From the IMG/VR virus record IMGVR_UViG_3300038701_000369, positions 1-41,157 of that record: a stretch of 41,157 nucleotides of DNA. One strand, 5' to 3'. Position numbers and translations under genes: made by a program. The stretch is from a virus. The notes beneath the pieces are model-generated. The model searched no databases. It worked only from the letters and a program-made list of their open reading frames with translations, and was not told the origin of the DNA. Shown piece by piece: positions 1,254 to 40,773 of this stretch. Each line of letters begins with the position of its first letter. The stretch's first letter is position 1.

Positions 1254-2521
1254 CCACAGCCTTCGATATTAACCTAATACCATGGCAACAGGAGGTTTGG
1301 AGGCACCCAGCTAAGTACAAGATCGTTTGTGCAGGCCGTCGAGTAGGAAAAACAGAGCTAGCCTGCTACCGATTGCTTTACAACGCCCTGACTGATGGGA
1401 TTCTGGACAAGGATGCAGAGCGTTTCTACGTTGCGACCACCCAGAAGCAAGCAAAACGGAACATGTGGGGCAAGTTACACCAGATCGGTCATAAACTGAT
1501 CGCTAAGTCGCACATCAACGACCTAGAAATCACCTTGATCAACGGTCAGCGCCTCAGTTTGCAGGGTGCAGACAACCCAGAGGTAATGCGAGGTGTAAAG
1601 CTGGCAGACCTAGTGCTTGATGAGTACGCTGACATGCGTCCTTACATCCTAGAAGAGATTCTTGAGCCTGCATTGGCGGACTATGACCCAGGATACCTGA
1701 TGATCGGTACTCCTAAAGGTCGGAATCACTTCTACGAGGAGTACATCAAGGCAAGTCTGGGCGATGACCCCGATATGGCGGCATGGACCTTCACTACGTA
1801 CGACAATCCGTACATCAACAGGGATTTCTTGGAGCGTAAGAAGCGTACAGTGTCTTCTCACGCGTTCAGGCAAGAGTACATGGCGTCGTTCGAGTCGCAA
1901 GGTTCTGAGATATTCAGCGAGGAATGGGTTTCGTTCTATGACGAGCGTCCTGCTGCGGGTACATGGTACATCGCAGTAGACCTCGCAGGTTTTGAGGAGG
2001 TCGGTAAGAAGAACGGCACTCGTAACCTCGATGACAGCGCCATAGCCTGTGTCTTTATTGACAAGCAGGGTAACTGGTGGGTCGAGGACATCATCACAGG
2101 ACGCTGGACGTTGGATGAAACGGCACGGCGCATCTTCGATGCGGTGGCTAAGTATCGTCCGATCAAGGTAGGGATCGAGAAGGGTATCGCCAAGCAAGCG
2201 GTGATGTCACCCTTGACAGACCAGATGCGTCGGACGGGTAGGCACTTCGTTGTAGAGGATCTCACGCATGGTAACCAGAAAAAGAATGACCGGATAGCGT
2301 GGGCACTCCAAGGACGTTTTGAGAACGGATTGATCAACATCAAGAGGGGAAGTACATGGCAGCCAGCGTTCTTGGACCAGCTGTATCAGTTCCCTGACAA
2401 ACTAACTCATGACGATATGATCGACTCACTGGCGTACATCGACCAGTTGTCTGATCAGTCGTACCTGGAAGACTACGAGATCGAAGACTTTGAAATCTTT
2501 GATGACATCTCCGGGTGGTAA
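1250..2521 (+). CDS. Terminase large subunit
   Basis: The packaging motor ATPase and nuclease (423 residues). Walker A is GRRVGKT at 29-35. Walker B with catalytic Glu is LVLDEYADM at 121-129. The coupling motif GTPKGRNH follows at about 153-160. The RNase H-like nuclease half starts at YIAVDLAG (Asp244), continues at VGIEKG and ends with an acidic HDDMIDSLAYI segment near the C-terminus. Length is typical. The start codon is GTG, overlapping the lysozyme stop as GTGA, so the two are translationally coupled. It acts at the portal to fill procapsids. Confidence 0.95.
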   Translation: MTTAFDINLIPWQQEVWRHPAKYKIVCAGRRVGKTELACYRLLYNALTDGILDKDAERFYVATTQKQAKRNMWGKLHQIGHKLIAKSHINDLEITLINGQRLSLQGADNPEVMRGVKLADLVLDEYADMRPYILEEILEPALADYDPGYLMIGTPKGRNHFYEEYIKASLGDDPDMAAWTFTTYDNPYINRDFLERKKRTVSSHAFRQEYMASFESQGSEIFSEEWVSFYDERPAAGTWYIAVDLAGFEEVGKKNGTRNLDDSAIACVFIDKQGNWWVEDIITGRWTLDETARRIFDAVAKYRPIKVGIEKGIAKQAVMSPLTDQMRRTGRHFVVEDLTHGNQKKNDRIAWALQGRFENGLINIKRGSTWQPAFLDQLYQFPDKLTHDDMIDSLAYIDQLSDQSYLEDYEIEDFEIFDDISGW

Positions 2522-2530
2522 TTATAGCAG

Positions 2531-2576
2531 TGCAGGAAAGTTACGGCGCAGAGAGCCTGCATCTCGTTGAAGCGCC
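2531..2576 (+). other. Interleaved inverted repeats upstream of the tRNA pair
   Basis: TGCAGG (2531-2536) pairs with CCTGCA (2556-2561), and GGCGC (2545-2549) pairs with GCGCC (2572-2576). The two stems interleave, so the RNA could form a pseudoknot or two alternative hairpins. A run of six T follows at 2582-2587. It could be a weak terminator or processing structure between the large terminase gene and the tRNAs. It is not a third tRNA: no T-arm consensus is present. Confidence 0.35.
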
Positions 2577-2587
2577 AGCCATTTTTT

Positions 2588-2661
2588 ATTCGGGACAGGT
2601 AAGGTACCGGTCTGGTCTCCAAAACCATGACGAGAGGGTTCGATTCCCTCCCCGTTTGCCA
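2588..2661 (+). tRNA. tRNA-Trp (CCA)-like gene, weak acceptor and D arm
   Basis: The anticodon loop CTCCAAA (anticodon CCA) is closed by TGGT/ACCA. A 5-nt variable loop and a perfect T-arm GAGGG-TTCGATT-CCCTC follow, and the 3' end GCCA is encoded. The acceptor pairs ATTCGGG with CCCGTTT, leaving two T-T mismatches. The D stem CAGG/CCGG has one mismatch, and only one base separates it from the acceptor. It may be a diverged functional tRNA or a decaying one. Only 5 bases separate it from the next tRNA, suggesting a common precursor. Confidence 0.6.
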
Positions 2662-2666
2662 ATAAA

Positions 2667-2741
2667 ACTTGGGTAGCTCAATGGCAGAGCATCCGGTCGA
2701 TAACCGGAAGGTTGTAGGTTCGAGTCCTACCCTAAGTACCA
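2667..2741 (+). tRNA. tRNA-Ile (GAT)
   Basis: A complete cloverleaf. The acceptor is ACTTGGG/CCTAAGT with one G-T pair, and the D stem is GCTC/GAGC. The anticodon stem TCCGG/CCGGA holds loop TCGATAA (anticodon GAT at 2699-2701). The variable loop is AGGTT, the T-arm is GTAGG-TTCGAGT-CCTAC, the discriminator is A and CCA is encoded. It lies in the late rightward transcript between the large terminase and portal genes. Phage tRNAs commonly offset codon-use differences from the host. Confidence 0.92.
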
Positions 2742-2755
2742 ATTAAGGATAGCGC

Positions 2756-4795
2756 ATGGCACTTGAAGAGCTAATCAAATTAGAAGACCACGCTGCTTCG
2801 GGCCAGACGCTTGAAGCTTGGGTACATACACAAACCGAAGACTGGCGTGACCACATTGACTCGAACTACATCGACAAGTGGGACGAGTACTACAGGATCT
2901 GGCGAGGAATCTGGGCACACGAAGACAAGACCCGACAGTCAGAGCGTAGTAAGCTTATCGCCCCGGCCACTCAACAGGCAGTAGAATCTTCTGTCAGTGA
3001 GCTTGAAGAAGCCACGTTTGGTCGGGGTTCTTTCTTCGATATCGAGGACGATGAGATCGAGCAAGAGCCTGCCCTGGGACTGGAGCAGACTAAGAAGCAG
3101 CTCGCTAAGGAATTCAAGAAGCATGGTATTCGGAAGGAATCTTCTGAGGTAATGCTTAACGCTGCTGTCTTCGGTACGGGAATCGCGGAGCTTGTCCTTG
3201 ACAGCTACGATGAGTACACCCCGACGGAAGAAGAGGATGACAATGGTCTCACAGTCATTGGGCGTTCAACCAAGAAAAAGATATGCGTTAAGGTTAACCC
3301 GATACGTCCTCACAATTTCCGAATCCCTCCGACAGCAACCAGCATCAACGATGCGCTGGGAGTGGCAATTGAAGAGTTCGTATCCCCCGACTACGTGTAT
3401 GACCTACAGGAACGGGGAATTTACAAAGAGACTGAAACTCTCCTCGCCTCAACATTCACGGATATGGAGCTTGAAGCTGACCCAACCATCACATCCTACG
3501 ATGAAGATAAGGTCAAGCTCCTACGATATTACGGTAAGGTTCCCCGACATCTGCTAGAGCAGGTAGAGGGTTACGAGCCTAACCAGAACGTACAAGAAGG
3601 AAGTTACTACACTGAGGCAATCGTTGTGATTGCTAACGATGGAGTACTCCTGAAGGCAGACCCTAACCCGTATCTCATGAATGACCGCCCTGTTGTGGCG
3701 TTCCAGTGGGATATCGTCCCCGGTGTATTCTGGGGTCGTGGTGTCTGCGAGAAAGCATACAACCCGCAGAAGGCTCTCGATGCAGAGCTTCGACAACGGC
3801 GGGATGCCATGGCTATGAACGTAGCCCCTATGATCGGCATTGACTCTACTCGTCTTCCGATGCTGGGGCAGAAGCTACAGATCCAGCCTGGTAAACAGAT
3901 CCTTACGAACGGCGACCCAAGAGAAATCTTGCATCCGTTCAGGTTTGGGGACCTTCCCCAGAGTTCGTTTGTAGAAACGGACAATCTTTCTAAGATGGTT
4001 CAGATGGCTACGGGGGCCGTGGATTCTGCTGGGATTGCAGGGCAGATCAACGGTGAGGCTACAGCAGCCGGCATTTCCATGTCCCTCGGAGCCATCATTA
4101 AGAGGCACAAGCGTACGCTAATCAACTTCCAAGAATCGTATCTGATTCCTCTGGTACAGAAGGCAGCGTATCGTTACATGCAGTTCGACCCTGAGAGATT
4201 CCCCGCACAGGACTACTCCTTCATTGTGAGTTCTTCTCTCGGGATCATGGCAAGGGAATACGAAGTTGGTCAAATGACCCAGCTGTTGCAAACGATGTCC
4301 CCGGACTCACCGATTTACAGTGCAGTTCTGGAAAGCATCATCGACAACATGAACGTATCCAACAGGGAAGAACTCATTGCTCGTATCCGCAAGGCTGGTG
4401 AGCCTGACCCTGCACAGCAAGAAGCTATGCAGCAGCAGGAAGCCAGAGCACAGCAGATACACGAAGCGCAACTACAGGTTCTTGCTGCACAGGCAGCAGA
4501 GTCTCAGTCTCGTGCAGCTAAGTACGAGGAAGAAGCAAGACTGATGCCGTTGAAGCTCCAGGTTGAAATGCTGGAAGCTGCTGCGGATATCAACAACGAC
4601 GCAGCTGATGACTTCGAGAAGGTAATGCGAATCTCTCAGCAGAAGTTCGACGAGAAAGCTAAGGTCGCTGACCTGGCTCTCAAGGAACGTAAGCAGAGGG
4701 CTGAAGAAGTACTGAAGCGTCGTCAACTTGAACAACAAACCAATCAACCAAACCAACAACAAGCACCCCAACAGGAGAATGCTGATGGTAGTTAG
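2756..4795 (+). CDS. Portal (head-tail connector) protein
   Basis: A 679-residue protein in the usual place after the terminase. The N-terminal half has the acidic and aromatic segments common in podovirus portals. The middle contains GIAELVLDSYDEY, PHNFRIPPTA and WDIVPGVFWGRGV stretches. Residues from about 540 on are strongly helical, Gln/Ala/Glu-rich and likely coiled-coil, ending in a low-complexity Gln/Asn tail (QTNQPNQQQAPQQ). Portals form the dodecameric ring through which DNA enters and leaves. Length matches large podovirus portals. The start ATG follows the tRNA-Ile by 14 bases, with AAGGA upstream. Confidence 0.9.
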   Translation: MALEELIKLEDHAASGQTLEAWVHTQTEDWRDHIDSNYIDKWDEYYRIWRGIWAHEDKTRQSERSKLIAPATQQAVESSVSELEEATFGRGSFFDIEDDEIEQEPALGLEQTKKQLAKEFKKHGIRKESSEVMLNAAVFGTGIAELVLDSYDEYTPTEEEDDNGLTVIGRSTKKKICVKVNPIRPHNFRIPPTATSINDALGVAIEEFVSPDYVYDLQERGIYKETETLLASTFTDMELEADPTITSYDEDKVKLLRYYGKVPRHLLEQVEGYEPNQNVQEGSYYTEAIVVIANDGVLLKADPNPYLMNDRPVVAFQWDIVPGVFWGRGVCEKAYNPQKALDAELRQRRDAMAMNVAPMIGIDSTRLPMLGQKLQIQPGKQILTNGDPREILHPFRFGDLPQSSFVETDNLSKMVQMATGAVDSAGIAGQINGEATAAGISMSLGAIIKRHKRTLINFQESYLIPLVQKAAYRYMQFDPERFPAQDYSFIVSSSLGIMAREYEVGQMTQLLQTMSPDSPIYSAVLESIIDNMNVSNREELIARIRKAGEPDPAQQEAMQQQEARAQQIHEAQLQVLAAQAAESQSRAAKYEEEARLMPLKLQVEMLEAAADINNDAADDFEKVMRISQQKFDEKAKVADLALKERKQRAEEVLKRRQLEQQTNQPNQQQAPQQENADGS

Positions 4796-21413: not shown

Positions 21414-23051
21414 TCAGATTCCGCAAACACCACCACCACAGGCTGCGTCGGAATTTTCTTCAAGAACAACGCCAACGTTTGCTTTAGCCTCATCGTAAGA
21501 ACATAGGTTGAGTGGTTGTCCTCCCCTAGCTCCGTCAGGGTACGCAGTGAAGCCTCGTAGTCTCGGGGCGTACTTGGCAAGCGTACGTGCGAATCCCTCA
21601 ACTCGATCTTCGTTATTGCTTTCCGTCCCCCAAGAAGGGAGGTTGATGGTTGATGATATAGACATATCAACGTAGTCTTGTACGTCGGCTTGGAAAGAAA
21701 TACGCCTTTCAAAATCATCCACCAACGAAAGACTGGTTTCAATTTTATCTGGCTCGATACCAAATTCATTAATCAAACCCTCCGCTGTGGAGTCAACAAC
21801 GTACTCCGCTTTCCATTGGTTACCGCCCACGAGATACCGACGCTTATATGCGACAGCAAATAGAGGCTCAATACCAGTAGTGGTACCTGCAAGAATACCG
21901 ATAGTACCAGTGGGAGCGATAGCCCGATAAGCAACAGGCTTACTGATCCCCAGCCTATCGCACAGAGAGTTCGCTGAGCGTTCGCTCTCCTCCCTATATA
22001 CCTCAAGCCACTGCCTGAGTTCCTTAACCATCTCATACCTATAGCCTCTCTTCAGGAGCCACTCATGTATCCCCATGAGACCCAGGCCCAACCGTCTGTT
22101 CTTCTTACGGACCTCATAAACTTTCTTATAAGGCAGGTCTGCTGTCAGAGTACCGCATACCAGAAAGCCTGAAGCAAGACGTACAACTTCTCGAAAACGA
22201 TCAATGGTGTCGATTGCACCCATGTTGATAGACCCGAGGTTACATACGTCTGAGTCATCTTCTGACGTAACCTCTGTACATGCATTACGTAGCGTCTCAT
22301 TCTCTTTGTCTCCGAAGTTGAAGCTGAAACCTGGCTCACCTGTCATCATAGCTTGGCGACAGTTGTCAACGAAAGTCTGTGGCAGGTGTCCCTGTGAGAT
22401 ATGATCGAGGAAAGCGTTGTCGTAGTTCAAGCTGATGTTCGTCATGTCCATAGGAGCATGACCGTTGTAGTTCTGTTCCTTGATTTCCTTGTACGTTATC
22501 GAATCGGTGGGGCCGCTGTCATGCCAGTTCTTGAGGGTAAGGAAACTGTCGGCGTCTTGATGTCTCCAGTTAAGTGAAGCGTATATGGCGCTCCGACGGC
22601 TGCCTCCCTGCATGACATTGCGTCCGATCTCGTTGATGGATTGCATAAGAGGTATAGGTCCAGAGGCGTCTCCTCCAGTTCGTCCAAGTGGAGAGCCAGA
22701 AGGACGGAACACACTGTAGTCAACGCCGATACCCCCACCAGACATAAGGCAATCGCTAGATCTTTTACAAAGGTTACCCCACTCTTCACGCGTATCCTCC
22801 TCACCCTTCAACAGGTAACAGTTATTATAGAAGCTGGCCTGCCGACCAGCGTAGTAGATGTACCTGCCACCGGGAAGGAACTCGAACCCCTTGATCATCT
22901 GGGCTAACTCACCTTGCATGTCGGGAGGCATCAGGTTTTCTGTGACCTCGTATGCTATTGTGTTAGCTTTGTCTTCCCAAGTCTGGCCTTCATAGGTTGC
23001 GTACTTATGATTAAAAATTCCCTGTGCAAAGGGGTTCCTGAATTCGCTCAA
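21414..23051 (-). CDS. nrdJ: Class II (adenosylcobalamin-dependent) ribonucleotide reductase
   Basis: A 545-residue enzyme converting ribonucleotides to deoxyribonucleotides for phage DNA synthesis. Visible residues are Cys78 in NNCYLL, GGGIGVDYS at about 105-113, Asn256-Cys258-Glu260 (NACTE, the radical-site triad), Cys270 in CNLGSINMG, the loop APTGTIGILAGTTTGIEP and C-terminal Cys538 and Cys543 (ACGGGVCGI), which would recycle the active-site disulfide. The absence of a small radical subunit or activase gene nearby supports class II, which uses vitamin B12. It is compact compared with many bacterial NrdJ proteins of 700 or more residues. It is the last gene of the leftward transcript. Confidence 0.9.
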   Translation of the reverse strand: MSEFRNPFAQGIFNHKYATYEGQTWEDKANTIAYEVTENLMPPDMQGELAQMIKGFEFLPGGRYIYYAGRQASFYNNCYLLKGEEDTREEWGNLCKRSSDCLMSGGGIGVDYSVFRPSGSPLGRTGGDASGPIPLMQSINEIGRNVMQGGSRRSAIYASLNWRHQDADSFLTLKNWHDSGPTDSITYKEIKEQNYNGHAPMDMTNISLNYDNAFLDHISQGHLPQTFVDNCRQAMMTGEPGFSFNFGDKENETLRNACTEVTSEDDSDVCNLGSINMGAIDTIDRFREVVRLASGFLVCGTLTADLPYKKVYEVRKKNRRLGLGLMGIHEWLLKRGYRYEMVKELRQWLEVYREESERSANSLCDRLGISKPVAYRAIAPTGTIGILAGTTTGIEPLFAVAYKRRYLVGGNQWKAEYVVDSTAEGLINEFGIEPDKIETSLSLVDDFERRISFQADVQDYVDMSISSTINLPSWGTESNNEDRVEGFARTLAKYAPRLRGFTAYPDGARGGQPLNLCSYDEAKANVGVVLEENSDAACGGGVCGI

Positions 23052-30298: not shown

Positions 30299-30779
30299 AC
30301 TTTTCCCTCATGTCATCGTAAAACATCTGGATACATTTACGTACTGTCCAGAGATTTACATCGAGGAGTTGCACTACCTCTTTCGATTGATACCCAAGGA
30401 ACACAAACAACTCAAGGATAGACTTAGCTGGTTCGTCCATGTCTTTGACTTCGAGCATGATCTTCTCTAGTGTTTGTTCATCATGGGCGGCTAGCTCCAG
30501 GTCTTCGATGATCCTGTCTGGCTCAGCAACCATACCTTGATACCGCTCCTGTCTCTTGAAGTCTTTGAGCGTGTTGTTTATGATCGTGTTGAACCATGCC
30601 TCCATGACCTTGTTGTTCGGGTCATAGCTGTCGATGTAATACAGAGCACGAGTGAACGCCTCTTGCACTACGTCTTCTGCGTTGGGTATACCTCCAGCAC
30701 GGTAGCTGAATCTCTTGACCAGCTTGTCGTACTCACTACAATAGAACTCAGTTAGTGTGGTAACCTTGTTTAATTTCAT
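30291..30779 (-). CDS. ECF-like RNA polymerase sigma factor
   Basis: A 162-residue protein with two sigma70-family domains. Region 2 covers about 12-75 (NAEDVVQEAFTRALYYID, then EAWFNTIINNTLKDFKRQE, the core-binding and -10-recognition helices). Region 4 covers about 110-160 (DEPAKSILELFVFLG and a helix-turn-helix VVQLLDVNLWTVRKCIQ). Length equals ECF factors. phiEco32 encodes an ECF-like sigma that redirects host polymerase to phage promoters. This genome has no RNA polymerase gene, so the same role is likely here. AGGA lies 7 bases before the ATG, and the gene overlaps the helicase gene by 32 bases. Confidence 0.82.
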   Translation of the reverse strand: MKLNKVTTLTEFYCSEYDKLVKRFSYRAGGIPNAEDVVQEAFTRALYYIDSYDPNNKVMEAWFNTIINNTLKDFKRQERYQGMVAEPDRIIEDLELAAHDEQTLEKIMLEVKDMDEPAKSILELFVFLGYQSKEVVQLLDVNLWTVRKCIQMFYDDMREKYA

Positions 30780-32406
30780 TGAACAGTCCTGTTGCCCTGT
30801 CCCAATAGAGCGGGACGTTAGCGGTCATACCAAACTCACGATCTTCCAAGAGCTTGAGAGTACGCACGTTCCGTTCTTCTATGGGTAGGTCAGGGTCTTT
30901 GTTGCCTTCGATACCAATCATGTAGTTACATGAACGCATCATTGCACGAGATCCAGCAAACTGTGTACTGAACACTTGTCCCCCTCTCTCGTGTGGTATG
31001 CCATCGGGTGCCTTGAGGTGACAGAAGATGTACGCTGTAAAGTCAAGGTCCTTGGCGAGTGCTGATAGCTCGGCGGCTACTGTAGTCAGGTGTTCATTAG
31101 CCTGTGCTGCTGACATCGTATTGGTAAAGCAAGTGATGGGGTCGATGATTACGTCACGCACCCCGTCATTCAGTACCGTATAGGTGATGTCATTCTTCAG
31201 GTCATCCCACCTACCGAACTGGTAGATATCCTGGAAGATAGCCTTGTCTCCTACCTGTGCGTCCGCTTTGTCGAACGCCTCATGGTCGAAGGGTACCGTT
31301 GGGTCATGAAAGATACGACCCGCTACCTTGCCGAGTACCATCTTGTAGCTCTTAGCCAGGGCTTCCTCGGGCTTGATCATGTACACCGGACTGTTGTGCT
31401 CTTGTATGATATGGGCAGCGATGGCGTTTACAACCTCGCTCTTCCCCATCTTCACACCAGCCCCGATGTAGATAGTCTCGCCTCTTCGGATACCCCGTGT
31501 TGCCTGAGTCAGCCCTTCCCATGGCCAGCTCAAGCCGAAGGTCGGTTCCTTACGTGCCGCTTCTCTGAGCTGGCTACCGTATACAACACGAGAGTTCTTC
31601 GGCTTGGCTGCCTTGAAAACTACAGCGGACTTCAGTGCCTTGGCCGCACCCTGCATGAGGCAATCGTTCGCGTCTTTGCATGGCAGCTTAGCTACCTTTG
31701 CCTCGGGTACAATACGACACACTTGGTCGGCTGCTTTCTGACCCGGTTCATCCATGTCAAACACTAAGACTATCTCATCGAAGTGCTCACGGATCTGTTG
31801 AACCATCTCGGAGATCTCTTTCTTAGCACTGCCTGAACCAGACGTGAGGGACACGACAGCGTGTTCCATGTCAGCATAGGCAGTACCAGCGTTCGACTCC
31901 TTGAGTACCTGATACAGAGCGATGGCATCGTACTCACCCTCTGTAATGTACAGGGTCTTAGCTCCTGATCGGACTGCTTGCTTCCAACCGAAGAGCTGTG
32001 CCCCTCTTGTGGTACCGACAGCCCACATCTTCTTGGTCTTCAAGGGCCTGGCCTTCCAGCCTATCAGCCCCTCGTCAGTACCGTAGGGGAAGTACACCAA
32101 GGTAGGTGTACGCCCGTCTGCTTGTGATACCTCCATGCGACAACCGAACCTCTCGAAGGCAAACTTCTTCAGCCTCCTGTCTGGTACGTCAGTGCATGGG
32201 TACTTGATTAGCTCTCGAACTTGAGCTTCCACTTCCTCTGGTGAGGGCGGCTCATACTTAGGTGGCGGCTTGTCCCCATACGGGTCATTAACATAGGTGC
32301 CACATGAAAAGCAGAAGCCGGTGAACACACCGTCGTCATGGAATACTTGGAGTCCGTCGCTCGAACCGCACTCATCATGCGGTAGTTTCTCGACGCAATC
32401 CCCCAT
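30748..32406 (-). CDS. Primase-helicase (T7 gp4-like)
   Basis: A 552-residue bifunctional replication protein. The zinc-binding start is His10-x2-Cys13 and Cys32-x2-Cys35 (a His replaces the usual first Cys). The TOPRIM primase fold shows YITEGEYDA (Glu155), VFDMDEPGQ (216-222) and KDANDCL. The RecA-like helicase has Walker A GAGVKMGKS (314-322), Walker B VIIDPITCF and a C-terminal FAGSRAMMRSCNYMIGI with the Arg region. It unwinds the fork and primes lagging strands for the polymerase. GGAGG is 4 bases before the ATG. Confidence 0.93.
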   Translation of the reverse strand: MGDCVEKLPHDECGSSDGLQVFHDDGVFTGFCFSCGTYVNDPYGDKPPPKYEPPSPEEVEAQVRELIKYPCTDVPDRRLKKFAFERFGCRMEVSQADGRTPTLVYFPYGTDEGLIGWKARPLKTKKMWAVGTTRGAQLFGWKQAVRSGAKTLYITEGEYDAIALYQVLKESNAGTAYADMEHAVVSLTSGSGSAKKEISEMVQQIREHFDEIVLVFDMDEPGQKAADQVCRIVPEAKVAKLPCKDANDCLMQGAAKALKSAVVFKAAKPKNSRVVYGSQLREAARKEPTFGLSWPWEGLTQATRGIRRGETIYIGAGVKMGKSEVVNAIAAHIIQEHNSPVYMIKPEEALAKSYKMVLGKVAGRIFHDPTVPFDHEAFDKADAQVGDKAIFQDIYQFGRWDDLKNDITYTVLNDGVRDVIIDPITCFTNTMSAAQANEHLTTVAAELSALAKDLDFTAYIFCHLKAPDGIPHERGGQVFSTQFAGSRAMMRSCNYMIGIEGNKDPDLPIEERNVRTLKLLEDREFGMTANVPLYWDRATGLFNEIKQGYHTN

Positions 32407-32460: not shown

Positions 32461-33222
32461 TTAGTAAAGCTTTTCGAAAACTTTTACATATTTATCCAGC
32501 GTCTGTCCCGTCAGACCTGGGGCTGTGTTCACTTCCAACACGTACGCCTTGTCGTAGTGCTCGTTGTAGATCACATCGACTGCACCGAAGTGTAACCTAA
32601 GGGCATCAACAGCCTTCAATGCTGCTACTTCCACGGCATCTGGTATGTGCTCATTGGTACGCTGGAAGATGAAGCCGTTCCCGTGGTTCCTGATCCTGTA
32701 GTCCACGCCATCAGCAGGCAGGGCTGGGTTCCTGATCTTACGGTCAGTGATGATAACAGCATTGAACGCCACATGTACACGCCACTCGGACTTAGACTTC
32801 TGGTACTTGACGTACAGTGGTGCACGAGCTATTGGTTCATTCGGGCTAGAACAAATTGAGATACCTCTTCCTCCGTTAGCACGGAGCAGGGTACGAGACA
32901 GTACAGACTCCCCCTCCAGAACCCACTCTCGTGCCTTCTCAAACTCAGTGGTGTATTCAGGGATAGGTACCTCTTCTATTACCATCTTGTCAAACGACCT
33001 CAACTTGTTGCCAGCATCTGAGACCGCATAGGGCGGGTTGATGATGTAACTCTTCTCTACTTGGTAAGGAACCTCTGGTGCACCCCAGTTAATCACTATC
33101 TTCTGGTAAGATCCCTTGAACTTCGAACCGTTGTGCTTGATACGCTTAGCACCAAGCGCACGGGCCAGGTCACGGGCAGACTTGCTGCCCATCTTGTACG
33201 GATAGATGTACTTCATTCCCAT
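32461..33222 (-). CDS. ATP-grasp ligase of the amidoligase operon
   Basis: A 253-residue protein with the ATP-grasp fold: glycine loop NGGRGISI (116-123), the basic and aromatic YVKYQKSKSEWRVHV stretch (137-151), and the metal-binding core VDVIYNEHYDKAYVLEVN (215-232) followed by TAPGLTG. The family activates a carboxylate as acyl phosphate and joins it to an amine. It is the distal gene of the cluster with two GS-fold amidoligases and two glutamine amidotransferases. The ATG at 33222 has GAGG 4 bases upstream; ATG 33216 forms an ATGA overlap and is also possible. Substrate unknown. Confidence 0.88.
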   Translation of the reverse strand: MGMKYIYPYKMGSKSARDLARALGAKRIKHNGSKFKGSYQKIVINWGAPEVPYQVEKSYIINPPYAVSDAGNKLRSFDKMVIEEVPIPEYTTEFEKAREWVLEGESVLSRTLLRANGGRGISICSSPNEPIARAPLYVKYQKSKSEWRVHVAFNAVIITDRKIRNPALPADGVDYRIRNHGNGFIFQRTNEHIPDAVEVAALKAVDALRLHFGAVDVIYNEHYDKAYVLEVNTAPGLTGQTLDKYVKVFEKLY

Positions 33223-34415
33223 TCATCCTCGTCGTCTTCGAGTTCGTCGTAATCTTCGTCCACTTCGTTGCCAGCTTGTAGGATGGCTTCATCAATAGCT
33301 CGACCAACAAACGCGTTACCACCAGCATCTCCGAGTATACGCATCTGGCGTTCAACCATAGCCATCGCTTGTGCAACCTCAGCCTGCTTTCTCTCGTCAT
33401 CCCGATCTTTCTTGCGGTTTTTCAGGACGGCTTCACGGTGTATCCGATAGACTTCAGATGCAGCCTCGTCAACGAGAGCAAAGGCTCTCTTCCGGTTCTT
33501 TGAGTACAGGTCCCTGTCTTCACTGAGTTTCTGGAGTTCCTCTCTATACATCCAGTCTTTAAGCTCAGTCTTCCACAGGTAGTGTTCCGCCTGTTCGGAA
33601 AAAAGATTCCATTGATCGAACTCCCAGTCATCCGTACTGAATGCGATGTGCTGTGCCCTACGCATACCGTTACGCATACTGTCCTCGTCAAAGGGCACGA
33701 TGTTAGGGAACTGTTCGAACACCATGTCGTACAGTTTACGTGGAGACTCGGCACTGAATGCCATGATAATCTCCTGCGGATTGTCGAACCTCTTCGCAAC
33801 CTCTCGAATGTTCAGGAGAATACCAGCCCACACTGACAGCTTCTCGGTGTCCACTGTACTCCGCATCGCACGGAACTCCAGGCTACCGTACCGAGGAAGG
33901 CTGTTGATGTTCAGTGCAGCATACCGGATGTCGTCAGTGCGGAACAGATCCTTGTCACTCTGTACAGCTGCATGTCTGAGGATGTCGATCAACGCCTCGG
34001 CATCCTTGAACCTGAGACAGAACAGGTTCCCGTCACGGTACTCACCGCACAGCTCTGTCAGCTGATCCTCGAAGATACAGTACAGCATGATCATGTTGTA
34101 GACCTGAGCCATACTGCACTGTTGCACATTCACATGGATATGCACACCAGCACGACCAGTATCGTACACTGTCATCCTGTTCCTCTTAACAAAATCCTGG
34201 ACAAGAGCGACAGCCCTCTGCATGTCTTCGAAAGCTAATGGGTCTCGGAGCACAAGCTCAACAGCATCACCACGAAGGCTACCGTCATGCTCAACTCTCC
34301 AATCAGCTCCAGGCATCAGCCCGAAACGTTCGAACCCCTCCCCCTCTAACTCTATCTCAACGCCGAGGTCTCCGTCCTTGCGCCTCAACTTGTATTGCTC
34401 TTTAACGGTTATCAC
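33213..34415 (-). CDS. GS-fold amidoligase (Amidoligase_2 type)
   Basis: A 400-residue protein. Its first 190 residues carry the amidoligase motifs GVEIELEGEG (18-27), VEHDGSLR (41-48), VELVLRDP (52-59), AGVHIHVNV (89-97) and YGSLEFRAMRST (176-187). The Glu, His and Arg residues correspond to the metal/ATP and acyl-phosphate site of glutamine-synthetase-like folds. Residues 270-400 are helical and charged, ending in an acidic Asp/Glu tail, and may mediate partner binding. Expected to form an amide or peptide bond using ATP. Start GTG with GGAGG 7 bases upstream, overlapping the previous stop as GTGA. Confidence 0.82.
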   Translation of the reverse strand: MITVKEQYKLRRKDGDLGVEIELEGEGFERFGLMPGADWRVEHDGSLRGDAVELVLRDPLAFEDMQRAVALVQDFVKRNRMTVYDTGRAGVHIHVNVQQCSMAQVYNMIMLYCIFEDQLTELCGEYRDGNLFCLRFKDAEALIDILRHAAVQSDKDLFRTDDIRYAALNINSLPRYGSLEFRAMRSTVDTEKLSVWAGILLNIREVAKRFDNPQEIIMAFSAESPRKLYDMVFEQFPNIVPFDEDSMRNGMRRAQHIAFSTDDWEFDQWNLFSEQAEHYLWKTELKDWMYREELQKLSEDRDLYSKNRKRAFALVDEAASEVYRIHREAVLKNRKKDRDDERKQAEVAQAMAMVERQMRILGDAGGNAFVGRAIDEAILQAGNEVDEDYDELEDDEDEWE

Positions 34416-34981
34416 TGTGCGTCCTCCAATTCTTCTTTGAGGTACGTGAAGTTCTCCAAGAGAACAAGGTTACCGGACTGATACTTGCCTACCTCTATAC
34501 CACGGTAGTGCAGATGAACACCGTCATCTTGTCTGACGAATGCCCAGTACCTGTGGAATGCACACCCACTGTGCTTGTTCATCCTAGCATAGGCGTCTTC
34601 CATACTGGGGAACTCGTTGTTGATGAGCTTCGCCATAGACACAGACTTGATCAGTCTATCAAGAGAGTGAACTCTCTTGTTAACAACCAGATTAGCAGAG
34701 TTCAGTCCCTGCTTGTACCTTCGGTGAGGCAGACGAGAGCAGTACAACACATCCGATGTGGTGTTCACGTACCCAAGCGGTACCGGACGTATGTCCAACT
34801 GCTTGTTCGGAAGGGTGAACCTCCCAATCTTCTGGGTATCTGTGTAATACCCGCTGACCTGTAGCCCGTCTATCTCTACGACGTAAAATGGACGGCCCTT
34901 GTGCATCACCAAGCTTGAGCCAAGACGCATCTGCAAGTCTCGTTGTTGGTAGGGAAGCCCAGTCTTTTTATCCAAGTCCAT
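34412..34981 (-). CDS. Unknown protein of the amidoligase operon
   Basis: A 189-residue protein with no family I recognise. A beta-rich first half (FYVVEIDGLQVSGYY, then TLPNKQLDIRPVPLG) is followed by a helical part (LDRLIKSVSMAKLINNEF) and a C-terminal segment HRYWAFVRQDDGVHLHYRG. The ATG at 34981 has GGAGG 8 bases upstream; a longer frame to 35011 lacks this. It lies between the two GS-fold ligases with a 1-base gap and a 4-base overlap, so it is likely a partner or substrate carrier of them. That is inference from position. Confidence 0.68.
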   Translation of the reverse strand: MDLDKKTGLPYQQRDLQMRLGSSLVMHKGRPFYVVEIDGLQVSGYYTDTQKIGRFTLPNKQLDIRPVPLGYVNTTSDVLYCSRLPHRRYKQGLNSANLVVNKRVHSLDRLIKSVSMAKLINNEFPSMEDAYARMNKHSGCAFHRYWAFVRQDDGVHLHYRGIEVGKYQSGNLVLLENFTYLKEELEDAQ

Positions 34982-34982
34982 A

Positions 34983-35777
34983 CTAATAACCTCCAGGGGT
35001 TGGGATACCAATGATGTTGATCAACTCTACAGCTGCATCAACGTTGCTGGTATTGATGACTTCTTGAATGTCACCGAACTCTTCGGCCAAGTCTCCATCT
35101 CGGAGGGACTGGATAGCAAGTGTCGTGTTCGTAAACACCCACCGCATGAGCTTCTCGTCTGACAACCACTTGTTCGAGAGGACACGGTACTCTACGCCGT
35201 AAGACTTCGGGCGATAAGCACCAGCTTGTCCGTACATACTCCGACGATCCACATCCTGATCGAACAGGAGAGAAGGGAGTCCGAGGAAGAAGTCCAGCTG
35301 TCGCACAAGCCTACAGCACAGGGCTACATGATCTCGGTGTGTCGGGTCTTGGCCTGAGGTCAGGCCGATGTGCACATGCCCAGCACCAGTACGGATGGGC
35401 AGATTGTTGTCGGGCTTAGGGTTGACCTTGCCACCAAGCCAAGCGTTGTAGTCAGGGTCACACCCTAACTCCTTAGCTTCCTCGGGCTGAGCATCGAGGT
35501 ACTCAGGTGTGAACCTGGCTACCGGGTCAGCCACTACATCGTGAGTAGGTACCATGTCACGGAGCTGTGCCATTACAGCTTGAAGGTTGAAGACGAATCC
35601 GTCTTCGGTATCAGCGGGGTCGATGTTGAACTCCAGGGCCATGCCATCTACCTGCACAGCACCGTAGTCCACGACATGAGGGTTAGCCTTGTCGCCGGGG
35701 ACAAGACCCCAACCTGATACGTGTTTGCCATCCTGCATAGCGAACAGCTCGGGATCAGCACCAATCAAAATGTTCAT
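34983..35777 (-). CDS. phiEco32-like COOH.NH2 ligase type 2 (GS-fold)
   Basis: A 264-residue protein matching the family named after phiEco32: IGADPELF (5-12), GAVQVDGMALEFNI (39-52), RTGAGHVHIGL (129-139) and YRPKSYGVEYRVLSNKW (188-204). These correspond to the acidic metal ligands, ATP-contacting His and C-terminal Arg of glutamine-synthetase-like carboxylate-amine ligases. Family members are predicted to make peptide or amide bonds; no product is known. AGAGG lies 7 bases before the ATG. It is 10 bases from the amidotransferase gene. Confidence 0.88.
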   Translation of the reverse strand: MNILIGADPELFAMQDGKHVSGWGLVPGDKANPHVVDYGAVQVDGMALEFNIDPADTEDGFVFNLQAVMAQLRDMVPTHDVVADPVARFTPEYLDAQPEEAKELGCDPDYNAWLGGKVNPKPDNNLPIRTGAGHVHIGLTSGQDPTHRDHVALCCRLVRQLDFFLGLPSLLFDQDVDRRSMYGQAGAYRPKSYGVEYRVLSNKWLSDEKLMRWVFTNTTLAIQSLRDGDLAEEFGDIQEVINTSNVDAAVELINIIGIPTPGGY

Positions 35778-35787
35778 AACAATTCCT

Positions 35788-37161
35788 CTAGTTCAGGGTT
35801 GAGTTTGCAGCCATGTCCTGGATCTCTTCGTCGCAGGACTCACACAACGGCTGCTTGTCATGTGTCCATACGACATCTCCGTTACCGTACCACAGATTAC
35901 ACTGACAGCTAGCACAACCATGCTCAGTGAGCTTGTCGAACTCTGCCTCAGTGAGAGGCTCACCGTCAGGACCACGTACTCTGTGATCATTCAGCTGGAT
36001 AACCTCACCTGTCTTAGGTTCATAGGTATCAGCTATCTCTACACTATCGGGGTCCACGAATATGTGTCCCTCGTCCAGTGTGAGAGTGTTTTTGTGACAC
36101 CTTACGTAAGGCATCAGCATACTCTTGGCTGTTCCAACCAGCTCGATCTCTGTCTGGTCTATCATATCAACAGCATCCTTGCTTGATGAACAATACACAC
36201 GGACTGTGTGATACGGGTGCTCCGTCATTGCTCCTTCCATGGAGTAGCACCCACCCTTGTACTGAGGGTCAATCACACGATCAAGGATGAAGTGAATCTT
36301 CTTACCTCGCAGACTGTCCATGTCTGCGGCGAGATCTTCTCGCTCGTCGTAGATCTTGTCTACTTCTTTTCGGTCCATGCCTGGAAAGCTGTGACGGTTC
36401 CCCGAATGTCTCCCGTACCCACCGTACCATTGATTGTACCTTGGCGGGGTGTACAGGTTTAACATCCGGGTGTGCACTTTTGGGAGGGGTTTGTGCTCCT
36501 TCTTCGGTAGCTCCCAAGTGTAGAGCTGACCTACCTTGAGATCGTGTATGCCATCCTTCAGTAGACGGATGTTATTCCTGGACGCTGCGACCAAGATCAT
36601 CCAGTCCTCACTGGCATACAACAGACTCCGCTTGTCTGCCGTCAAGCAGTAGCTAAGCGGACGTTCATCGTTCCGAATCATACTGAATGTATGATCACCC
36701 TTGTTGTACCACGTAAGGGCAAACGCTCCATCAACCTTTCCCAAGGTGTCCTCTGCACCGTTCTTGTTGATGTTGTAAATCAGACAACTGGAGTCAACCT
36801 CAAAGAGCTTCGCATCATCGAGGTCTTGCTTCCACCCACGCAAGGTACCGTTGTGCATACCTATCACGTTGCCGTGCATAAATGGGTGAGCATTCTTGGT
36901 GTTGACTTCACCAATCGTGGCGTGACGGTTATGTCCCATCAACCCCACGCTCTGGTACTTCATCACATCCTTGCCGAGGTCTGAAGATAGCAGGCTATGC
37001 GGATCACCTGCCAACTTAGCCGAGTAAGGCACCTTCTGCGGTGTCATGTTCACAATCCCTGTGCTGTGAACACCTCGAACAACATCAAAGAACAACATGT
37101 TCTTGAAGGCTGCCTCGATGGGCTTGTTAATGGCACCAATGGCACCAACCAGTCCACACAT
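35788..37161 (-). CDS. Class II glutamine amidotransferase with C-terminal zinc ribbon
   Basis: A 457-residue protein. The N-terminal nucleophile is Cys2 (MCGLVGAIG, exposed once Met1 is removed). GHNRHATIGEVN (76-87) and MHNGTL (102-107) are the glutamine-binding and oxyanion loops of Ntn-type amidotransferases such as GlmS and AsnB. After about residue 210 there is no sugar-isomerase or synthetase domain. The tail instead has a zinc ribbon (GCASCQC and CESC, about 425-450). It would release ammonia from glutamine for the neighbouring ligases, or transfer a glutamyl group. AGGGAG precedes the ATG. Confidence 0.87.
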   Translation of the reverse strand: MCGLVGAIGAINKPIEAAFKNMLFFDVVRGVHSTGIVNMTPQKVPYSAKLAGDPHSLLSSDLGKDVMKYQSVGLMGHNRHATIGEVNTKNAHPFMHGNVIGMHNGTLRGWKQDLDDAKLFEVDSSCLIYNINKNGAEDTLGKVDGAFALTWYNKGDHTFSMIRNDERPLSYCLTADKRSLLYASEDWMILVAASRNNIRLLKDGIHDLKVGQLYTWELPKKEHKPLPKVHTRMLNLYTPPRYNQWYGGYGRHSGNRHSFPGMDRKEVDKIYDEREDLAADMDSLRGKKIHFILDRVIDPQYKGGCYSMEGAMTEHPYHTVRVYCSSSKDAVDMIDQTEIELVGTAKSMLMPYVRCHKNTLTLDEGHIFVDPDSVEIADTYEPKTGEVIQLNDHRVRGPDGEPLTEAEFDKLTEHGCASCQCNLWYGNGDVVWTHDKQPLCESCDEEIQDMAANSTLN

Positions 37162-37164
37162 ACT

Positions 37165-37788
37165 TTATCTCCCTATCAGTTGATCAATCTTACGGAAATA
37201 CCATTGCTGGCACGGTGCATTCTTGTCCAGGAATTCAGGGTGCGGCTGATAACAGAACGAGAGTGTCTGCGGATACCAGACTGCTTCGATATCCTCTCCA
37301 CGCTGTGCCTTATGCACCACTACCTTACCGTCCTCGACATTCTCAAGCCTGGTCGCCTCACTGGCTACCATCAGGACTACCCCGTCCTCACTGGGGCGCA
37401 TCATCTGGTGATGGGTACTTGTGACCGGAATCATCTTACCCGTTTCAGTATCCACCGCAAGGTGAGTACCACCGATTGCGTGATTGTCACAGTCTTGCCA
37501 CATAGCACCACCGTTCATCACGTTCAGGAACTGAGCACCACGGCAGATACCTACCATTGGTACACCAATGTCACGAACGTACTCGAATACGTTGCACTCG
37601 TGGCTGTCACGCATGGCATCGTAGTGCGTAGCAGGGTGCCGACTTTCTTCGTACAGAACAGGGGATACATCAGCACCACCCGTGAACTGCACTATATCAG
37701 CGTCCTCTACGTCCTCGACGATCTCGTGCCCGTTATCCTCCCACATCTGGGAGTAAGCAGGCTCGTCGTACATCATGAACACTTTCAT
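37165..37788 (-). CDS. Class I glutamine amidotransferase / gamma-glutamyl hydrolase-like
   Basis: A 207-residue protein with the class I triad: Cys82 in GICRGAQFLN, and His183 and Glu185 in YQPHPEF. FTGGADVSP (35-43) and TSTHHQMM (123-130) are typical of the peptidase C26 branch that includes gamma-glutamyl-GABA hydrolase. No synthetase domain is attached. It may cleave a gamma-glutamyl amide made by the ligases or deliver ammonia. It overlaps the upstream gene by 4 bases. Confidence 0.88.
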   Translation of the reverse strand: MKVFMMYDEPAYSQMWEDNGHEIVEDVEDADIVQFTGGADVSPVLYEESRHPATHYDAMRDSHECNVFEYVRDIGVPMVGICRGAQFLNVMNGGAMWQDCDNHAIGGTHLAVDTETGKMIPVTSTHHQMMRPSEDGVVLMVASEATRLENVEDGKVVVHKAQRGEDIEAVWYPQTLSFCYQPHPEFLDKNAPCQQWYFRKIDQLIGR

Positions 37789-38717
37789 ACTTGGAGTTCC
37801 TCAATTGCTGAGATTATGTAGTCAGCCCAATGCTCGACGGACGGAACTACCTTTACGGTGTGTATTTCTACGTCGCCCAGCCAGTTGGTTCGCTTGTCCT
37901 GTTGCTCTTCTTCTATCTGATCTGTAAAGAGATCAGACAGGTCGAAATAGAACTTGGTGCCAGGCCCGTTGAACCTTTCGTTTACGTACTTGTATCCCTC
38001 CCTAAGGGGTGTGTCCCCTTTGTCATTAGGTACTTTACCAGAGCGCACGAGTGCACTCAACCCTTCGATGGTCATCTCATCGATTTCAAATGCCTGATGA
38101 CCTGAGTCTGCGTAATAGAAGTCCCAGTTTCCATTACCGTTCTCGTAAGCAGCTTCGCTAAGGACGACGGCCATTCGAGGGTGAACTCCACGATTCACCA
38201 GCTCATACCAAGCCAGGACTTTGTAAGGGTACTCCTTCGGACGACGACTCAAGATCAAAGAGGTCATCGCTAACCCCTGCTTGCAGTCCTGGTCTATGAG
38301 AGTGCCAAGGGTGAATGCCTCCTCTATGTTCTTCGTGATGAACGGCTGACCAAACACGTAGTCAGTTAAGAGGAACCGATGAAACTCTAAGGTCGCCTTC
38401 ATCAATGTGTCTTTATGCGTACTGATCCACTGATAAATCTGGTCGTACCTTTCCGGCATTTCATCTCTAAAACCTGGAGGTATGTGAGGCAGGTTAACGA
38501 GGACATCCCACGTTTTCTGACCTTCGACCCTCCACTTCCCCAAGAAAGAGTGACAAATAGCGGACTTGACCACATGAGGACGGACTCCCGGCTTCAGCAT
38601 ACACTGAGCAGAGTACGTCACTGACTTATACCGATTCTTTACAGCCAACTCTGCTAGCTGTTTCCTTACGGAATTGACGTACTTATTAGCGTGCTCTGTC
38701 ACAGACCAACCCCCCAT
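37785..38717 (-). CDS. Unknown protein at the head of the amidoligase operon
   Basis: A 310-residue protein, mainly helical and rich in aromatic residues (KDTLMKATLEFHRFLLTDYV; YKVLAWYELVNRGVHPRMA), with no motif I recognise. Two starts are possible: ATG at 38717, or GTG at 38702, which forms a GTGA overlap with the upstream stop and has a GGGGGG run 7 bases before it. Its 4-base overlap with the class I amidotransferase suggests it serves the same pathway. Function unknown. Confidence 0.68.
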   Translation of the reverse strand: MGGWSVTEHANKYVNSVRKQLAELAVKNRYKSVTYSAQCMLKPGVRPHVVKSAICHSFLGKWRVEGQKTWDVLVNLPHIPPGFRDEMPERYDQIYQWISTHKDTLMKATLEFHRFLLTDYVFGQPFITKNIEEAFTLGTLIDQDCKQGLAMTSLILSRRPKEYPYKVLAWYELVNRGVHPRMAVVLSEAAYENGNGNWDFYYADSGHQAFEIDEMTIEGLSALVRSGKVPNDKGDTPLREGYKYVNERFNGPGTKFYFDLSDLFTDQIEEEQQDKRTNWLGDVEIHTVKVVPSVEHWADYIISAIEELQV

Positions 38718-38869
38718 GTTACGCCAAACTGGCTGAACGGATATTCACGACGTATACGCCGCACCCAGTACGCTTGGCACCTACGTGCACGAGGCGTATC
38801 AATCCCGAACCACTGAGACTGTGCTACAGCGGCTCTACGGATCAATGAATTGTACCCTGTGTGTGTCAT
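38699..38869 (-). CDS. Small basic protein (56 aa)
   Basis: A 56-residue basic protein (SLIRRAAVAQSQWFGIDTPR, then QAYWVRRIRREYPF) with no recognised family. The ATG at 38869 has GAGG 8 bases upstream and overlaps the upstream stop as ATGA. A longer frame to 38914 lacks a ribosome site. It could be a nucleic-acid-binding or host-inhibitory peptide. Confidence 0.6.
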   Translation of the reverse strand: MTHTGYNSLIRRAAVAQSQWFGIDTPRARRCQAYWVRRIRREYPFSQFGVTWGVGL

Positions 38870-39015
38870 CGCTTCAACCTCGCAATCACAGCCACGCCCA
38901 CTACAAGCAGCCACAACGTAGCTGGCACGGGTACTGAGTGAATGGGCTGTTCAGCACACGGCCAGGCCGGTGACACAACTGTTCCGCCATTGGTGCAATC
39001 TCTTGTCTGATACAT
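38866..39015 (-). CDS. 49-aa protein with PEP-CTERM-like C-terminus
   Basis: A 49-residue frame starting MYQTRDCTNGG and ending VPVPATLWLLVVGVA then VIARLKR: a VPxPA motif, a hydrophobic span and a basic end. This is the arrangement of PEP-CTERM (VPxPA subtype) sorting signals recognised by exosortases in Gram-negative bacteria. There is no N-terminal signal peptide. The Shine-Dalgarno AAGGAG is 6 bases before the ATG, and the stop overlaps the next start (ATGA), so expression is likely. It may simply be a small single-span membrane protein. Confidence 0.65.
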   Translation of the reverse strand: MYQTRDCTNGGTVVSPAWPCAEQPIHSVPVPATLWLLVVGVAVIARLKR

Positions 39016-39523: not shown

Positions 39524-39552
39524 TAGGCAAAAAGAAAGGGGCCGAAGCCCCT
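39524..39552 (-). terminator. Intrinsic terminator after the first early gene
   Basis: On the leftward strand the stem AGGGGC/GCCCCT is closed by a TTCG loop (39543-39546) and followed by TTTCTTTTTG. It stands 47 bases after the stop of the 39600-40139 gene. It separates this gene from the long leftward operon, so that operon needs its own promoter or antitermination. Confidence 0.82.
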
Positions 39553-39599: not shown

Positions 39600-40139
39600 T
39601 TACGCTGCCTGTGCTTCCTCTTGCTCAGGCTCAAGAGCAGCCTGTACGATGGCCAGGACTTGCTCAGCACTAAAGCCGCCTTTCTCAATGGCTTTCTTGA
39701 TATCACGCTGGATCAAAGCGCCGTAGTCAGTCTCTTTAACCTTGACTTCGACGTTCTTGGTTCCCCACTCAGAGTACAGCTCACCAGTAGCTTCCCACTT
39801 ACGGAATGCACGTACTTTAGCTTGTGCCTTAGGCTTTTCCAGCCGCTTACCGAATGTACCGTCATTCTTGAATTCATGCGGTACAAACTTAGGCAGAAAG
39901 CTTTCCGCTACCTTGCGACGTTCACCACGCAACGCTTTCAGGGTACGGTTAACGATGGCGATATTGTCACCACCGATCACAGCACCTACGATTGCGGGCA
40001 TGATCTCGTCTAGCAGTTTGACCGTCAACCGTTCGTTACCTGCTACGGTCTTGATCTTCTCGTTCACAGACTCGCGCTGCTTATCTGTGAACGGCTTGTA
40101 CTGCTTTTCGAAAGGGATAGCTTGATTTACATCTTTCAT
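39600..40139 (-). CDS. Early protein of unknown function
   Basis: A 179-residue protein, not recognised. The N-terminal half is helical and charged (DKQRESVNEKIKTVAGNERL; NRTLKALRGERRKVAESFLP). A basic middle (RLEKPKAQAKVRAFRKWE) and a helical C-terminus with an acidic Gln/Ala tail follow. The ATG at 40139 has GGAG 7 bases upstream; 12 more residues are possible in frame but lack a site. As a single gene behind the right-end control region and before its own terminator, it is a candidate immediate-early regulator or host-takeover protein. Confidence 0.7.
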   Translation of the reverse strand: MKDVNQAIPFEKQYKPFTDKQRESVNEKIKTVAGNERLTVKLLDEIMPAIVGAVIGGDNIAIVNRTLKALRGERRKVAESFLPKFVPHEFKNDGTFGKRLEKPKAQAKVRAFRKWEATGELYSEWGTKNVEVKVKETDYGALIQRDIKKAIEKGGFSAEQVLAIVQAALEPEQEEAQAA

Positions 40140-40773
40140 GATATTTCTCCAATAGGCTAATGATACCCTCGACATGAGAGCATCGGTCAGCCTACTGGTG
40201 AGCGATGGGGATACGTTATAAATGTCGGATATGCTGCTATGCCAGCACCGACAATGTACGTATTCGGGTAGTACAACGGGATTGATACGGCTTGACTGGA
40301 CTCACAGTCAGTGGCTATTGATTTGCCCCTAGTGTGGCGGATCACCCTTCAGCATAGACTTTAGCTTAGGGGTTCACGTTCACGGGGCGCAGATTGTTAA
40401 AGAATCAGTTTAGGCGAGTATCACAGTACGACGTTGGGAGATCGTTGACCCTTACATGATCGTGCATACGGCATAGCGTACGCTGTGATCCTTCCCCCCA
40501 TTAGGAGCCTGATGTAAGCGTGTAACTTTCTCTCTCTTTCTAGGCAAGGTTCACCCCTACGGGCGTCACGCATTGCCATACTGGACCAGCATTACCGGTT
40601 TACAATGCATACGCATAGACGGACTGGACACAACTCTCGCCAGACTGTTAATGATCGCCAGTGACGCGGTGGTCGCTGGACACAGTAGGTATTGCATCTC
40701 CGGTGCCAACCTGGAGAAACTTCAATAGAATCAAGGGGTTACGTGAGTATGGCCAGATATGACCGAATATGAA
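40140..40773. other. Long non-coding leader, no convincing gene
   Basis: About 630 bases without a reading frame that has both length and a ribosome site on either strand. It contains a boxA-like site (40393-40404), a pyrimidine tract on the rightward strand (CTTTCTCTCTCTTTCT at about 40527-40542) and several short inverted repeats. It probably forms the 5' leader of the leftward early transcript or part of a replication origin. I found no tRNA or known structured RNA in it. Confidence 0.5.
40393..40404 (-). promoter_or_regulatory. boxA-like antitermination site
   Basis: On the leftward strand the bases read TTCTTTAACAAT, with GAT before and CTG after. The bacterial rRNA boxA is TGCTCTTTAACAAT, so 11 consecutive bases match (TCTTTAACAAT). 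NusB-S10 bind boxA RNA and reduce termination. The site lies in the leader upstream of the 39600-40139 gene and its terminator. A boxB-like hairpin was not identified. Confidence 0.45.

Follow-up and report, generated by a model that had tools for sequence, protein, structure and literature searches.

What product would call for three different ligases, two proteins of glutamine amidotransferase type, and two conserved proteins of no known family, all encoded side by side by a virus? The question is raised by positions 32461 to 38717 of the IMG/VR virus record IMGVR_UViG_3300038701_000369, whose whole stretch of 41,157 bases is referred to here as the window. The gene set, hereafter the cassette, comprises in the direction of reading unkB, GAT-I, GAT-II, a COOH-NH2 ligase, unkA, AL2, and an ATP-grasp ligase, and it had been described from the letters alone (the sequence-only reading) as an amidoligase operon. 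Our answer, which we hold with a probability of about one half, is that these genes specify a soluble pathway of the cytoplasm that makes and then cuts gamma-glutamyl amides on a small acceptor, with an envelope precursor as the likeliest one.

The evidence that carries this answer begins with GAT-I (37165 to 37788, minus strand), which has a class I glutamine amidotransferase fold of the Peptidase_C26 type and matches PF07722 at 6e-19 (69.1 bits against a Pfam gathering threshold of 20.5). Its nucleophile Cys82 (codon at 37543 to 37545, minus strand) forms a triad with His183 (37240 to 37242) and Glu185 (37234 to 37236), all three residues being shared by at least 97% of 77 relatives, and the C26-type SxHHQ motif is present as STHHQ at residues 124 to 128 (37405 to 37419, minus strand). 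The nearest proteins in the PDB are Lin1909 and the entries 7d4r, 7d50, and 7d53, deposited as “probable glutamine amidotransferase,” which we take to be Pseudomonas aeruginosa SpuA, a gamma-glutamyl-polyamine hydrolase; the best NCBIfam model is gamma-glutamyl-CDP-amidate hydrolase (2e-7, under cutoff). GAT-I has family, catalytic triad, and SxHHQ motif in common with the SpuA/PuuD and gamma-glutamyl-CDP-amidate hydrolases, but it scores under the equivalog cutoffs. Of the original assignment as a class I amidotransferase, the fold and triad stand but the amidotransferase role is the less likely one: because of its C26 family and because its slot is exchanged with a cyclotransferase, GAT-I is probably a gamma-glutamyl hydrolase rather than an ammonia donor.

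This exchange is visible across 105 cassette loci, of which 60 have the C26 enzyme alone, 18 have both C26 and a gamma-glutamyl cyclotransferase, 15 have the cyclotransferase alone, and 12 have neither; 11 of these last 12 are truncated by a contig end, and in the remaining one, Proteus phage J3S, a cyclotransferase gene lies farther downstream. None of the 98 untruncated loci placed in a tree of the COOH-NH2 ligase lacks both cutters, and the C26 hydrolase holds the slot in 62 of the 98. In RIO-1, Slicky01, 1.208.B, KZY1, and locus L073, the cyclotransferase lies between unkB and GAT-II, the exact position of the C26 gene; the window has the C26 hydrolase in that slot and no match to a cyclotransferase. 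Among 35 cyclotransferase sequences, at least 97% retain the Tyr-Gly-x-Leu motif and one Glu. C26 and cyclotransferase enzymes are unrelated, and both cut gamma-glutamyl amides. That two unrelated cutters of the same bond type replace each other is our best evidence, and because of it we place gamma-glutamyl chemistry at the center of the cassette. On the best tree the cyclotransferase-only state requires 4 changes, of which well-supported branches force just 1; the exchange may thus have happened repeatedly. Contig L097, which was binned with Stahlbacteria, is phage-like, and has an RNA polymerase gene, encodes no other cassette enzymes than the COOH-NH2 ligase, two of C26 type, and one cyclotransferase, possibly a minimal make-and-cut set.

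The two proteins of no known family belong to the cassette too. We fetched 80 viral loci by similarity to the COOH-NH2 ligase, 59 of them with at least 4.5 kb on both sides, and found all seven families in 56 of the 59; the loci were picked by likeness to one cassette gene and are mutually related, so that they do not count as independent events. Leaving ATP-grasp aside, the six other genes keep one order and strand in 63 of 65 loci, and a primase/helicase gene lies downstream on the same strand in all 72 loci with enough downstream sequence. In about 10 loci almost nothing else is encoded between the seven genes, and the small genes interleaved elsewhere are therefore not needed. Both unkA and unkB are fixed members of the cassette. 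The sequence-only reading had proposed to check whether these embedded genes always travel with the ligases, and with few exceptions they do; the ligases fall into the families it had named, and in related loci the genes are neither scattered nor independently lost.

Beyond these loci, the enzymes are found again, in other arrangements, in LUZ24, phiEco32, Grimontviridae, Lahexavirus, phiM6, and a crAss-like phage. The COOH-NH2 ligase of the cassette is encoded in at least 317 phage records of GenBank, their hosts including Pseudomonas, Escherichia, Vibrio, and Klebsiella among others. A cellular origin was rejected, as the matches in bacterial metagenome-assembled genomes L090 to L093 carry the phage cassette with primase and L097 has its phage-like RNA polymerase gene. 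Several loci (L003, L011, L016, L025, and others) contain a second ATP-grasp gene between GAT-I and GAT-II, which suggests that the phages concerned carry out two different ligation steps.

The three ligases and GAT-II, all on the minus strand, could be placed by profile searches. The COOH-NH2 ligase (34983 to 35777) has a GCS/GS fold of phiEco32 type 2 and matches PF14395 (2.3e-11) and phrog_3815 (2.5e-86); AL2 (33213 to 34415), an Amidoligase_2 protein with a GS-like fold and an acidic C-terminal extension, matches PF12224 (3.8e-8) and phrog_7469 (8e-70); the RimK/MptN-like ATP-grasp ligase (32461 to 33222) matches phrog_2599 (4e-73); and GAT-II (35788 to 37161), a class II (N-terminal nucleophile, Ntn) glutamine amidotransferase domain followed by a C-terminal region, matches PF13522 (5.6e-14). 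The Pfam and PHROG profiles uphold all five enzyme family calls of the sequence-only reading, and the motifs it had found intact are so. Conservation was computed over 77 to 90 relatives, depending on the gene, and each expected catalytic residue (in the ligases, acidic residues, histidines, and arginines) is kept in at least 97% of them: E10, E49, H134, H136, R178, E196, and R198 in the COOH-NH2 ligase; E20, E22, E24, E53, H92, H94, E180, and R182 in AL2; and K73, E146, D216, E230, and N232 in the ATP-grasp ligase, where R110 is conserved too. The same level is reached by R79, N104, G105, and D123 of GAT-II, whose Cys2 is present in the window sequence.

Four C-terminal cysteines of GAT-II (C416, C419, C440, and C443; 35833 to 35916, minus strand), at least 97% conserved in 88 relatives, form a CxxC...CxxC pattern that is predicted to be a zinc-ribbon-like motif. 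The ATP-grasp protein would work like an ATP-grasp ligase and resembles the alpha-glutamate ligases; the NCBIfam matches to MptN (5e-11) and RimK (8e-8) are both under cutoff, and it fails the curated RimK family score (32 versus 143 bits for TIGR00768; 16.4 versus 21 for PF08443). A LysW-like carrier tail on AL2, whose C terminus in the window reads ...EDEDEWE, was considered and rejected, the tail not being conserved in relatives. No protein fusions that might serve as functional clues were found.

Of the two remaining proteins, unkA (34412 to 34981, minus strand) belongs to an uncharacterized phage family (phrog_11055, 1.3e-32) and gives an AlphaFold2 model with a predicted local distance difference test score (pLDDT) of 95. 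A fold search of the PDB returned no match under E 0.01, just short, partial similarities to SH3-like barrels; structural matches in a viral library were unnamed phage proteins and a CW02 protein. Its conserved G70, R83, and R87 suggest a role in binding an anion or substrate. unkB (37785 to 38717, minus strand) has a weak profile match (phrog_34254, 1e-10), a less certain model (pLDDT 77), and no match in a fold search of the PDB; its C55, R158, E162, and H207 are nearly invariant against an overall identity of about 18% and look like an active or metal site. The suggestion that the two might be small carriers fits neither the compact, confident fold of unkA nor the near-invariant Cys/Arg/Glu/His set of unkB.

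Homologues of unkB were detected in 68 of the 80 related viral loci and in RIO-1, Lahexavirus, and Grimontviridae (as two tandem copies), and homologues of unkA in phiEco32 and, weakly, LUZ24. In Grimontviridae loci L103 and L112, the tandem unkB genes are diverged and directly upstream of the COOH-NH2 ligase; the paired proteins gp14-15 of LUZ24 and gp87-88 of phiEco32, at the matching place, may be remote unkB relatives (E 0.008 for gp87). Pattern scans of the viral collection with single unkA or unkB sequences returned no match because both proteins diverge fast, and profiles built on the ligase-fetched loci were required. Identity with a known protein was rejected for both (no Pfam, NCBIfam, or PADLOC family and no informative PDB sequence or fold match), as was a broken AL2 copy as the source of unkA (no profile similarity); a match of RBL4 to the unkB profile was ignored, since it covers 28 residues with no passing stretch. 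The PADLOC models of anti-phage defense matched none of the seven cassette proteins.

In the pathway that we infer, expression of the cassette would go along with that of the replication genes. The first step would fall to the COOH-NH2 ligase, a glutamate-cysteine-ligase-like enzyme, which would join a glutamate carboxylate to the amine of a small acceptor as an amide; AL2, to which GAT-II would supply ammonia, and the RimK/MptN-like ATP-grasp ligase would then add or amidate a further residue; and the C26 enzyme would finally remove the gamma-glutamyl group, as the cyclotransferase would in sister cassettes. unkA and unkB would be obligatory partners, and unkB may itself be an enzyme. Comparable gamma-glutamyl protection logic operates in polyamine breakdown (PuuA/PuuD) and in butirosin biosynthesis (BtrJ/BtrG). 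None of the seven proteins contains a hydrophobic segment of membrane-helix length. The likeliest acceptor would be a host cell-envelope precursor, such as the peptidoglycan stem peptide, following earlier authors who proposed peptidoglycan side chains as the target and superinfection exclusion as the benefit to the phage (PMC5498523; PMC10580990); we regard the envelope as the single most likely target, at roughly one in three.

Several points weigh against this pathway. The literature reports no product, substrate, or mutant for the cassette, in agreement with the initial statement that its product is not established; the matches of the ATP-grasp protein to RimK and MptN fall far under the curated cutoffs; neither unkA nor unkB has an informative fold match; the exchange of C26 and cyclotransferase rests on few changes, so it is not statistically independent; and the envelope target comes solely from the earlier authors' proposal.

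Among the alternatives, the one that survives best, as a tentative second choice, is a free small gamma-glutamyl metabolite, or the scavenging of nitrogen or glutamine by way of, for example, hijacked host glutamine, glutathione, or polyamines, with no tie to the envelope. The known substrates of C26 and cyclotransferase enzymes are small gamma-glutamyl compounds, and one of the proteins of solved structure nearest to GAT-I works in polyamine metabolism. A version of the cassette is also present in phage ZRK32, which is reported to aid nitrogen use by its host (PMC10945688), although the accessible part of that report describes no mutant test of the claim; moreover, three different ligases and two conserved partner proteins exceed what scavenging would need.

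We consider it unlikely that the ATP-grasp and GS-fold ligases tag a host or phage protein with glutamyl or other residues, as RimK does to ribosomal protein S6. The window ATP-grasp protein resembles the RimK family, and modification of host proteins has been proposed for phage R2K ATP-grasp enzymes (PMC4431377), but the gamma-glutamyl cutter of every untruncated cassette suits a small-molecule route better than protein tagging, no target is encoded, and the C termini of the cassette proteins are not conserved, which leaves no self-tagging signal.

Somewhat more doubtful still is DNA hypermodification, in which a nucleotide or the phage DNA would receive an amide-linked group that guards the genome from restriction. 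The position of the cassette speaks for it: primase/helicase adjoins it in 72 of 72 related loci, and replication genes lie nearby in LUZ24, phiEco32, RIO-1, phiM6, Grimontviridae, and a crAss-like phage. A 2025 BASEL report found that phiEco32-like phages resist restriction-modification systems in vivo for no known reason (PMC11990801), a resistance that points toward a DNA target, and Bas94 of that collection carries the cassette. Avoidance of EcoRV sites is not seen in phiEco32 (20 observed versus 15.9 expected) and was rejected as the cause of its resistance. EcoRI sites in phiEco32 number 5 versus 15.4 expected, and site counts in LUZ24 are uneven (SmaI, 0 versus 7.9 expected; EcoRV, 20 versus 7.1 expected). 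On the other side, virion DNA of phage tf, which carries cassette enzymes, is cut by RsaI, HpaI, EcoRV, SmaI, and HaeIII (PMC3517423), and because five restriction enzymes cut it, dense base replacement is unlikely in tf. The BASEL authors point instead to a dCTP deaminase and a nucleotidyltransferase (PMC11990801), and the terms amidoligase and ATP-grasp were not found in a search of their paper. Profile searches of Pfam, PHROG, and NCBIfam placed none of the cassette proteins in a DNA-modification family. Hypermodification overall is disfavored, a sparse or lineage-specific modification being possible; neither a DNA product nor a surface product can be assigned. Improbable to a slightly greater degree is the composite scheme in which unkA is a new binding fold, unkB founds a new enzyme family, and an undescribed gamma-glutamyl or amide-linked compound, built by protection, extension, and deprotection, sits on a nucleotide or sparsely on DNA and causes the restriction resistance of phiEco32-like phages.

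The cassette itself is not new. Its enzymes were published as a “seven-gene peptidoglycan modification cassette” of RIO-1-like podoviruses, with PA11, CW02, LUZ24, PaP3, tf, and phiEco32 named as carriers (PMC5498523), and earlier papers mostly treat it as a possible surface modification; the annotations of TC6 and UFV-P2 also have the set. The combination had been noted as known from phiEco32-like phages, which is right as to kinship, since the amidoligase set recurs in phiEco32, LUZ24, and Grimontviridae, but leaves out that the set already has a published name. In the RIO-1-like (Zobellviridae) cassettes of PSA-HP1, RIO-1, PA11, and CW02, the COOH-NH2 ligase, Amidoligase_2, ATP-grasp, and class II amidotransferase are as in the window and in shared order; downstream come primase/helicase and then a sigma factor and DNA polymerase, and genes like unkA and unkB are present, although the portion of PMC5498523 that describes the cassette does not name these two as members. 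RIO-1 differs in having a gamma-glutamyl cyclotransferase where the window has the C26 hydrolase, and the cyclotransferase is not defining in all published members.

The Pseudomonas phages TC6 and PA11 (Paundecimvirus) have all seven families, with order and neighbors as in the window, but their COOH-NH2 ligase is just 53% identical, and two extra small genes lie between GAT-I and GAT-II. The phiEco32, LUZ24, and Grimontviridae sets share with the window the COOH-NH2 ligase, an unkA-like gene, AL2, GAT-II, ATP-grasp, and a nearby primase; their order, however, is COOH-NH2 ligase, unkA, AL2, GAT-II, ATP-grasp, with a cyclotransferase and no C26 enzyme, and unkB is doubled in Grimontviridae, undetected in LUZ24, and borderline in phiEco32. 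That such a cassette is expressed follows from phage SU10, for which mass spectrometry detected the amidotransferase, ATP-grasp, and cyclotransferase proteins, all three listed among the early products (PMC4281155). The window cassette is a new member of the published one, in a form, with C26 for cyclotransferase, already common in relatives. As far as the literature shows, what is new here is the membership of unkA and unkB, the interchange of C26 and cyclotransferase, the zinc-ribbon-like motif of GAT-II, and the link to restriction resistance; Iyer 2009 and Hardies 2013 may hold parts of this.

An open reading frame (ORF) check of the window found all seven cassette ORFs intact on the minus strand and at the places given, so that the description as seven leftward genes with gaps of at most 10 bases is accurate. 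There are three overlaps (unkB/GAT-I, 4 bases; unkA/AL2, 4; AL2/ATP-grasp, 10) and gaps of 3 bases from GAT-I to GAT-II, 10 from GAT-II to the COOH-NH2 ligase, and 1 from there to unkA, and the ribosome-binding sequence is good for the majority of the genes. The extent of seven genes holds, but a sharp edge at 38717 does not: the better start of unkB is probably the GTG at 38702, which is preceded by GGGGGG and overlaps, as GTGA, the stop of a 71-amino-acid ORF (38699 to 38914, minus strand; no family match in profile searches), and the operon therefore has no sharp upstream edge. At the other end, the same strand goes on 54 bases past the cassette with the DNA primase/helicase (30748 to 32406, minus strand; phrog_239, 2.8e-148), a conserved neighbor outside the pathway, followed by sigma factor and DNA polymerase. 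Upstream of the cassette, a strong terminator-like hairpin at 39537 to 39552 on the minus strand (AGGGGCTTCGGCCCCT then TTTCTTTTT) may separate it from a 191-amino-acid ORF (39600 to 40175). A promoter scan gave results no better than chance.

The phage around the cassette has no near match among GenBank phages in a megablast search with the right quarter of the window. In its replication block and cassette it matches Zobellviridae phages, whose cassette order it shares; the COOH-NH2 ligase is 50 to 59% identical to those of CW02, PA11/TC6, and their kin, and the primase/helicase is 49 to 57% identical to those of oyster- and seawater-derived phages. For the head genes (1250 to 4795), the best among the matches listed are Manatee Spring, Rhizobium, and P. 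syringae phages for TerL (31 to 33% identity) and Roseobacter and Pelagibacter phages for the portal (about 23%), with no Zobellviridae record and no Paundecimvirus among the matches listed. Because the best of the listed TerL and portal matches fall in groups other than those of the Zobellviridae-like replication block and cassette, the genome looks mosaic. Elsewhere in the window are a ribonucleotide reductase large-subunit-like gene (21414 to 23051, minus strand; 545 amino acids) and a tRNA-Ile (GAT) gene immediately upstream of the portal gene (2667 to 2741).

For the phages that carry this cassette, the presence of a gamma-glutamyl cutter in every untruncated copy narrows the chemistry, and the addition of two conserved proteins completes the parts list, so that, in laboratory phages such as TC6 or members of the BASEL set, the question of what the cassette makes becomes testable.

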